A stretch of DNA of 44,194 bases from Parcubacteria group bacterium GW2011_GWD2_38_12. Its GTDB lineage: Bacteria > Patescibacteriota > Minisyncoccia > GWC2-36-17. Below are positions 1 through 1,831 of this stretch, piece after piece. Position numbers and translations under genes: made by a program. The stretch spans positions 1 through 44,194 of the forward strand of contig LBUA01000004.1 of the NCBI GenBank assembly GCA_000992345.1. Reading direction: 5' to 3'. The notes beneath the pieces were generated by a model, which worked only from the letters and a program-made list of their open reading frames with translations, was not told the DNA's origin and searched no databases. Numbering within the stretch: the stretch's first letter is position 1; the number at the start of each line of letters is the position of its first letter.

Positions 1-94
1 CCCCTTCCTTTTTGCCCGCCCGAGCGTTCAGTTTGGCGCGCGAAGCGCGCCGTCAGTTCCGTTCAAAATAGGTTCGGACTTTGTCGTATAATTG

Positions 95-208
95 CACCAG
101 TATTTGACTTTCAGGAATTTTGCCGACCGATTCGGCCGCGCGAAGCGCGGAAAGGTATGGAAACACTGGCTCGCCGCGCACGGCGCGGCTCGCCAAACGC
201 AGGTTCGA
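95..208. repeat. Left arm of 114-bp inverted repeat
   Basis: Reverse complement of 1646-1759 with one mismatch. Confidence 0.95.
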
Positions 209-243
209 AATCCCTTGCGATTTTAAGTATTTGCTTTGCCCAA
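95..243 (-). pseudogene. Inverted, internally deleted remnant of a serine recombinase gene
   Basis: Minus strand matches three segments of the adjacent recombinase in colinear order: 226-243 vs 630-647 (18 nt), 210-224 vs 1586-1600 (15 nt), 95-208 vs 1646-1759 (114 nt, 1 mismatch by eye). ORF 53..265 shares SNLRLASRAVRGEPVFPYLSALRAAESVGKIPESQILV with the recombinase C-terminus. Confidence 0.8.
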
Positions 244-250
244 TAAAACT

Positions 251-1768
251 ATGACTGAACAACATAAATTTTTCTTATACGCCCGCAAGTCCACAGACGT
301 GGAAGATAAACAGATGCGTTCTATCGAAGACCAGATCGCAGAATTGCGCGCCTTTGCGAAACAAGAAAATTTGAATGTTGTTGATATTTTTATTGAAAAG
401 CAAAGTGCCAAAATTCCGGGCCGACCGATATTTGGTCAAATGTTGAAAAAAGTTGAGGACGGCGAAGCCAACGGAATTTTGGCTTGGCACGCGGACAGGT
501 TGGCGCGCAATTCTGTGGACGGCGGGCGTATCATTTACCTTTTGGACACCGAAAAACTTGCGAGCTTGAAGTTTCCAACCCTATGGTTTGAAAATACGCC
601 GCAAGGAAAATTTATGTTGAACATTGTGTTTGGGCAAAGCAAATACTATGTGGATTCTCTTTCCGAAAACACCAAGAGGGGTTTGCGCCAAAAAGTGAAG
701 CGCGGAGAATATCCCGGCCCCGCGCCCATCGGCTACATAAATGACAGCCGCACTAAATCTGTGGTAGTGGACAGAAAGAAAGCAAAGGTTATTCGCGGGG
801 CCTTTGAGCTATATGCCGAGGGCAATTCGCGGTTAGAGGATATTTCAAACTTTTTGGCGCAACGCGGGATACTATCCCGTGGCGGAAAGAGAATCCACAA
901 GACGAGGGCGACTTTTATCCTCTCCAATCCGTTCTATACTGGATTATTTCGCTACTCCAAAGAATTGCACGAGGGCAAATACGAGCCAATCATCGCAAAG
1001 AAAATTTTTGATAAAGTTCAGGAAGTTTTGAAGCAGAGAGGAAGGCCGCACCACAAAACCAAATATGAGCCGCGAGATTTTTGCGGACTAATGAGGTGCG
1101 GCACTTGTGGAATGTCCATAACTGGCGAATACAGGGTTAAGAAGCAGAAAAATGGAAATGTCCACGATTACATTTACTATCACTGCACCAAGAAAAGTAA
1201 ATCAATCAAATGTCCCGAACCCTGTATTCGCCAAGAGGAACTGGACAAACAAATCTCCTCTCTGCTTCAAAAATTTTCTTTGCGTGCGGATTGGGCGGAA
1301 AAACTTTTGGCTATGGCAGAAAAAGATAAAGCGGTATCCGCCCAATCCGTTTCTGCTTTTGTTCTTGAATCTCAAATCAAAATCCGCGCCATGCAAACCA
1401 AGCTCCAGCGACTTCTCGATGGGTATTTAGAACAGGATATTGAACGCGAAATATACCGAGAACAGAAAGCGGTCTTGCTATCCGAAAAGAAGTCGCTGGA
1501 CGAGCAAATGGCGCGAATTGAACAAAAGCAAAATGATTGGCTCGAACCGATGAAAGAATGGATAAAAGTCGCTTCAAACCTCGTCAAAATCGCAAGGGAT
1601 AGCAACCTTTTGGGGAAAAAGGTTGCTGCCAAAGAAATCTTTGGCTCGAACCTGCGTTTGGCGAGCCGCGCTGTGCGCGGCGAGCCAGTGTTTCCATACC
1701 TTTCCGCGCTTCGCGCGGCCGAATCGGTCGGCAAAATTCCTGAAAGTCAAATACTGGTGGGCGCTTGA
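251..1768 (+). CDS. Large serine recombinase (resolvase + recombinase + zinc ribbon + coiled coil)
   Basis: N-terminal YARKSTD motif; HADRLARN; Cys-rich CGLMRCGTCG...YHC...KCPEP; start taken at MTEQHKFF (track ORF uses TTG at 236). Confidence 0.9.
   Translation: MTEQHKFFLYARKSTDVEDKQMRSIEDQIAELRAFAKQENLNVVDIFIEKQSAKIPGRPIFGQMLKKVEDGEANGILAWHADRLARNSVDGGRIIYLLDTEKLASLKFPTLWFENTPQGKFMLNIVFGQSKYYVDSLSENTKRGLRQKVKRGEYPGPAPIGYINDSRTKSVVVDRKKAKVIRGAFELYAEGNSRLEDISNFLAQRGILSRGGKRIHKTRATFILSNPFYTGLFRYSKELHEGKYEPIIAKKIFDKVQEVLKQRGRPHHKTKYEPRDFCGLMRCGTCGMSITGEYRVKKQKNGNVHDYIYYHCTKKSKSIKCPEPCIRQEELDKQISSLLQKFSLRADWAEKLLAMAEKDKAVSAQSVSAFVLESQIKIRAMQTKLQRLLDGYLEQDIEREIYREQKAVLLSEKKSLDEQMARIEQKQNDWLEPMKEWIKVASNLVKIARDSNLLGKKVAAKEIFGSNLRLASRAVRGEPVFPYLSALRAAESVGKIPESQILVGA
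1646..1759. repeat. Right arm of 114-bp inverted repeat, overlapping the 3' end of tRNA-Val
   Basis: Reverse complement of 95-208 with one mismatch. Confidence 0.95.
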
Positions 1769-1831
1769 GGACTCGAACCCCAGACCCTCTCGGTGTAAAC
1801 GAGATGCTCTAACCAGCTGAGCTAAGCGCCC
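1755..1831 (-). tRNA. tRNA-Val(TAC) with encoded CCA
   Basis: GGGCGCTTAGCTCAGCTGGTTAGAGCATCTCGTTTACACCGAGAGGGTCTGGGGTTCGAGTCCTCAAGCGCCCACCA; all four stems pair. Confidence 0.95.

Follow-up and report, generated by a model that had tools for sequence, protein, structure and literature searches.

A small tRNA-targeting integrative element of CPR bacteria whose serine integrase gene appears to fold as single-stranded DNA

Integron cassettes (attC x attI) are small mobile units which recombine through a folded single strand, and we know of no report that the cassette genes themselves are folded. Single strands also matter in the precise excision of Tn10-type elements with long inverted repeats, where fold-back draws the element ends together on a single strand and replication slippage takes place. 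Capture of integron cassettes following their entry by natural transformation has been studied (PMC8191803). The strand-biased circularizing elements SE-6945 and SE-6283 of Vibrio are integrative elements making a circular copy of one strand, their own enzymes exchanging strands at attL and attR; an inverted att copy or gene-wide folding is not described in the accessible part of that source (PMC9345347). Large serine integrases of phages and ICEs (A118/LI, SPbeta YokA and phiC31 type) carry Resolvase, Recombinase and zinc-ribbon domains, and in attP and attB of the LI integrase the zinc-domain motif differs in position by 5 bp (PMC3783163). Finally, multi-targeting large serine recombinases combine one integrase with many target sites, and tRNA does not appear in the main text of the respective paper (PMC10083194).

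The locus described here lies in the window, a stretch of 44,194 nucleotides at the start of contig C4 of the Parcubacteria group bacterium GW2011_GWD2_38_12 (674-kb genome, 96% complete). We read it as part of a small element that integrates by means of a large serine integrase directed at tRNA genes and would pass through a self-folded single-stranded DNA stage, an interpretation of the sequence to which we assign a probability of roughly 0.6. Like an integron cassette, the element is a small mobile unit with one or few cargo genes. However, integrons use a tyrosine integrase, just the short attC folds and there is no splint for the whole element, whereas a serine integrase with a tRNA core was found here in place of a tyrosine integron integrase and attC. 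The integrase has the same domains as the phage and ICE enzymes and a similar motif shift (4–5 bp), but the element differs from those systems in targeting the 3′ end of many tRNA isotypes and in having a second, inverted attP and a gene apparently folded at the DNA level. It resembles the multi-targeting recombinases in using one integrase for many sites, though its target is one conserved feature common to tRNAs. In contrast to Tn10-type excision, the element ends would be splinted by an internal attP copy. The open-access literature on CPR serine recombinases, tRNA targeting and coding-sequence folding contained no description of such an element and, to our knowledge, protein-coding genes with conserved, covarying DNA-level structure have not been described.

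As judged from the contig sequences, the window begins inside an element of about 4.03 kb, the other end of which is on contig C14 of the same genome. The last bases of C14 are identical to window positions 1–44, and farther inside C14 positions 1–99 recur as their reverse complement (C14:18806–18904, opposite strand, 100% match). The join of C14 and C4 for the window's own element depends on this 44-bp contig overlap, and the same layout is present in complete single-contig elements (L013, L018, L033, L063 and probably L029, plus L061). L061 has a spacer of only ~150 nt between the P′ arms, no cargo genes and an unstructured recombinase gene (L061:4334–4585). In sequence, the integrated element is ordered attL, cargo, intact inverted attP, recombinase and attR (Table 1), the C14 portion holding attL and the genes for a GmrSD restriction protein and an HTH protein. 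On C14, attL (...GCGGATTGTTTTCATGTTGGTG / CAATTATACG) consists of a terminator-like hairpin, then the core, then the native C-terminal tail of the recombinase, and in the window, which has the right end, tRNA-Val comes after the core. Joining the flanks across the core yields tRNA-Val plus a hairpin resembling its terminator. On this basis attL is placed on C14 and attR in the window; the B flank at attL is the kind of hairpin that commonly terminates transcription behind a tRNA. A common core of attL and attR and a tRNA restored by the element were found at the element's own C14 and C4 ends, in L063 and in others. The serine integrase appears to have inserted the element into the CCA end of tRNA-Val.

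Table 1. Positions of the features of the element within the window.
Feature	Position	Strand	Basis
Inverted copy of the attP P′ side (native recombinase C-terminal tail QLYDKVRTYFERN with stop, and sequence beyond), continuing onto C14	1..94	-	match to C14:18806-18904
Left arm: inverted copy of the attP P side (recombinase C-terminal codons)	95..208	-	113/114 complementary to 1646-1759
Core TGGTG of the intact inverted attP	95..99	-	attR vs inverted attP alignment, 40 elements
Large serine recombinase (integrase), final codons from antisense tRNA-Val	251..1768	+	Pfam domains; translation
Gene body with nested perfect stems	209..1645	.	folding z-scores; covariation in relatives
Nested perfect stems, gene body	210-224/1586-1600, 226-243/630-647, 260-276/603-619, 339-352/502-515, 407-418/472-483		
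Nested perfect stems, gene body	649-665/883-899, 683-696/849-862, 908-920/1560-1572, 982-993/1533-1544, 994-1011/1267-1284		
Nested perfect stems, gene body	1123-1138/1218-1233, 1287-1299/1337-1349, 1404-1416/1488-1500		
Right arm: P half of the attP split by integration	1646..1759	+	repeat; attR/inverted attP alignment
attR core TGGTG, antisense to the CCA-bearing tRNA 3′ end	1755..1759	+	alignment, 40 elements
tRNA-Val(tac), target	1755..1831	-	ARAGORN; Rfam RF00005; T-loop antisense motif spacing

Several details of the original prediction were borne out: the two arms are of equal length (114 nt each, with a single G/A difference at 182), the right arm holds the C-terminal codons of the recombinase and in its last 5 nt the antisense of the tRNA-Val CCA, the stop of the open reading frame (ATG at 251) falls within the antisense of tRNA-Val (C-terminus ...ESQILVGA), and an alternative C-terminal tail exists, encoded by the inverted left copy (...ESQILVQLYDKVRTYFERN, then stop). 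The left arm together with window 1–94 forms a full second attP in inverted orientation, its P side complementary to attR and its P′ side complementary to attL, and the right arm is half of the split attP. Integration into tRNA-Val with a broken-off tail had also been suggested. The integration holds, as the locus allows attL, attR and a plausible attB to be identified and tRNAs of many isotypes show this arrangement again, but the tail is not a fragment of another gene: it is the native C-terminus of the recombinase, which the gene carries (...ILVQLYDKVRTYFERN, then stop) only once attP is re-formed.

By its domains, the recombinase itself is of a known kind, a large serine integrase with all three typical Pfam domains, each above its cut-off (Resolvase, E 1e-24; Recombinase, 2e-15; Zn_ribbon_recom, 1e-9). 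Many tRNA isotypes are occupied by the elements (Val, Ile, Lys, Glu, Leu, Cys, Gly and Arg among them), and when attR was aligned with the inverted attP in 40 elements, the core contained TGG, the antisense of CCA, in most of them. The proposed integrase motif is the antisense of the tRNA T-loop, which reads CTCGAACC in tRNA-Val. A CGAAC-type motif lies nearer to the core in attB than in attP, by 4 bp in 27 elements and by 5 bp in four; another five elements were scored −3 or −4, the pattern having caught an earlier CGAAA-type match in attP, and inspection by eye placed the true motif at +4 in the four of these with a complete attP, the fifth (L034) being cut. Hence, attB and attP share a core and show a shifted zinc-domain motif. 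On this spacing, attP seems to mimic the tRNA T-loop, which would explain integration into many isotypes, and the zinc domain presumably recognises the T-loop, which would make nearly every tRNA a suitable target. Except for the tRNA, Rfam gave no match on the locus. No excision factor was recognised among the cargo proteins, although directionality factors are diverse and could be missed. In L018, P-arm-like sequence is present ahead of the core at the left junction (L018:2740–2810), as expected if insertion took place at a tRNA-Leu already holding an older copy (tandem integration). The window's own genome has a 76-bp, 84% remnant of the recombinase P arm in antisense, shortly after tRNA-Leu (taa) on contig C8 (L009:3394–3504), which is a decayed earlier integration.

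Inside the arms, the recombinase gene is occupied by nested perfect or near-perfect inverted repeats of 12–20 nt. Its predicted folding energy has a z-score of −16.3, which is 16 SD below dinucleotide and synonymous-codon shuffles alike, and folding with DNA parameters gave −16.8 against synonymous shuffles. For four neighbouring stretches, z ranged from −2.0 to +1.0. The 114-bp inverted repeat, for which chance is excluded, is only the outermost stem of this larger structure. Among 80 relatives, mainly CPR and almost all MAGs, stems are found in most, with mostly 10–42 perfect 12-mer pairs per ~1.3 kb compared to 0–0.75 in synonymous shuffles. In a codon alignment of 32 sequences, the stem positions of the window gave 4600 Watson-Crick, 203 G·T, 202 A·C and 449 other pairs, and controls with the partner slid gave 1442–1974 Watson-Crick pairs, all of these being counts of sequences and not of events. 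Some stem positions show three Watson-Crick states across relatives. Only 8 of 1998 stem pairs cross, versus 33% for random matching, and the stems are therefore parts of a single secondary structure.

Five changes suffice to place the structured state on a tree of 63 recombinases, compared to a mean of 17 after shuffling. In the saccharibacterial and verrucomicrobial clades the genes are unstructured and the terminal repeat is mostly kept. An inverted attP next to an unstructured gene occurs in L061–L064, L068, L069 and L081, so the cycle does not require folding along the whole gene. Distant structured clades share few or none of the window's stem positions (one each in L065 and L079, none in L086), yet their stems are still mostly non-crossing (6/153 cross); given these different stem sets, gene folding arose or was remodelled independently and repeatedly. 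Three relatives, L071, L086 and L088, are on contigs binned as Woesearchaeota, Bdellovibrio and Rhodoferax, respectively, but the L088 protein equals that of the saccharibacterial L087 over the tree columns, which makes mis-binning of L088 likely. Five unrelated phage or plasmid serine integrases showed neither gene stems nor a terminal repeat. IMG/VR (2.9 million viral contigs) yielded no relative and phage and plasmid records contained only distant integrases; a viral origin was rejected.

The cargo is diverse. In the window's own element it comprises a 578-aa single-chain GmrSD (type IV restriction-like; PADLOC HEC-06/Orf5) and a 65-aa HTH protein (L008:4967–6909, contig C14), a restriction enzyme with a control-type protein that is likely defence cargo. 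L013 has a complete GMP synthase and an HTH gene (L013:2880–4630), L018 has ArsR, a thioredoxin-like protein and an ArsP permease (L018:3071–4630), and L033 has a 1328-aa protein with a C-terminal acetyltransferase domain (L033:590–4576). Stems are also present in GuaA of L013 (22 12-mer pairs versus 0.5) and the ArsP permease of L018 (10 versus 0.2), and none of this kind were seen in the cargo of L033 and L063 or in eight host genes (one of which, in L013, was read out of frame).

The stems are abrupt and almost free of mismatches (4786 Watson-Crick, 7 G·T, 14 A·C and 27 other pairs), which would also suit a passive footprint, i.e., folded single strands occur, and template switching and hairpin mismatch repair make or perfect the inverted repeats with no selection for folding. 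That stem sets differ between clades and that cargo is affected to varying degrees fits this explanation as well. However, homologous stems are kept, with multi-state compensation, in relatives down to ~60% protein identity, and some elements with the same terminal repeats have stemless genes; we consider a purely passive origin unlikely. A folded single strand is implied in either case, be the gene folding a product of selection or a footprint left by repair while the strand is folded.

From the element anatomy, which was observed in the sequence, we infer a life cycle through such a strand; a circular, an excised or a single-stranded form did not turn up in the sequences. In single-strand folds predicted with DNA parameters for four elements, the outermost paired bases at the two element ends find their partners side by side in the inverted attP (2373/2374 in the window's own element, 2044/2045 in L018, 2063/2064 in L063, 2117/2118 in L013). 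Because both ends pair with adjacent bases, the inverted copy is predicted to work like a splint, keeping the ends of the element side by side at the core. A donor strand of the element with its flanks would enter a new cell, most likely by ComEC-type natural transformation, and would fold into a two-lobed dumbbell joined at the splinted attP, from which the host flanks would protrude as flaps at the core. No excision factor would be needed to restore attP, since the flaps could be trimmed and the ends ligated, or the P end could be extended over the splint. Once the second strand had been made, the integrase would be expressed, recognise the conserved tRNA T-loop and CCA, and integrate the circle at the end of a tRNA. 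The arms would be kept alike by mismatch repair in the folded stems, and the cycle would thereby explain their near-identity: arm identity within an element averages 97% (37 elements), while between elements the median ungapped identity of the 70-nt stretches beside the core is 36%. In L012, L023, L026, L034 and L038 the arms have drifted to 83–92%, which we take for decay that followed integration.

The com uptake system handles single strands, and transfer of the folded single-stranded DNA probably proceeds by natural transformation. ComEC is encoded in the window's own genome and in 16/16 other element genomes examined; as it is near universal, its presence discriminates little. Saccharibacteria are naturally competent through ComEC, and com uptake is conserved across CPR (PMC10633639). 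Conjugation and filamentous (ssDNA) phage particles both deliver single strands as well, and either could be the vehicle of the same cycle in elements that are present in many distant CPR lineages. Nevertheless, no relaxase, Rep or packaging genes were recognised among the cargo examined and the viral contigs held no relative, which makes these vehicles unlikely.

In a sense RNA, G·U would be far easier to accommodate than A·C. In the 32-sequence alignment, G·T and A·C are equally frequent and a wobble preference on the transcribed strand is absent, so the constraint appears to act on the DNA strands; the antisense strand folds equally well (−570.2 versus −572.3). As nested, covarying and strand-symmetric stems, they point to folding of a DNA strand rather than to mRNA structure. 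A recombinase mRNA that is itself a large structured RNA, regulating how it is translated or degraded, would agree with the very stable RNA folding, but this reading is largely refuted by the strand symmetry and was rejected on the equality of G·T and A·C. Further, stems also tie the element ends together across attL and attR, and Rfam matched nothing but the tRNA at the locus; we regard mRNA structure as very unlikely.

Two inverted att copies flank a recombinase, which could suggest a double-stranded mechanism with the copies as an invertible switch or as integrase binding sites, and an invertible recombinase cassette had indeed been part of the original prediction. The cassette was rejected, as the recombinase points into the tRNA in 40/40 elements listed. 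According to one abstract, serine integrases do not recombine other site pairings, and inversion by attP x attR is not a reaction known for them, which argues against the cassette (PMC3783163). Moreover, the arms are far longer than an att site and the gene stems would stay unexplained, so that a double-stranded mechanism is highly improbable. A promoter scan of the left arm found nothing. An equivalent repeat, mostly of 68–179 bp, is found at the same place in nearly all relatives with enough upstream sequence. Assembly chimerism of the left arm at the contig end, which would have undermined the prediction and to which the short distance of 95 nt from the end and the breaking of many relatives' contigs at this place might point, was rejected and has a negligible chance, since the repeat recurs at the same place in MAGs from many studies and assemblers, several of them with 5 kb of continuous upstream DNA, and the layout is identical within long contigs of independent assemblies (L013, L018, L033, L045, L053, L063). 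Contigs of many relatives (many among L011–L055) end a few hundred bases upstream of the recombinase, at the repeat; such elements are probably under-assembled in metagenomes.

More broadly, these loci may represent a class of elements whose whole body, including the protein-coding genes, is selected to fold as single-stranded DNA, whose ends are closed by an internal inverted attP splint, which spread by natural transformation between distant CPR lineages without an excision step, and in which gene folding evolved independently in several clades. We put this wider proposal forward tentatively, at slightly less than an even chance. If confirmed, it would be a gene-transfer route built on the uptake of single-stranded DNA in the largest uncultured bacterial group, and it would account for the movement of cargo (for instance a restriction system, GMP synthase or ArsP permease) from one CPR lineage to another. 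Since nearly all tRNAs share the conserved T-loop and CCA, an integrase reading these could be used as a landing tool in general, and with the folding as a mark such transfer can be traced from sequence alone.
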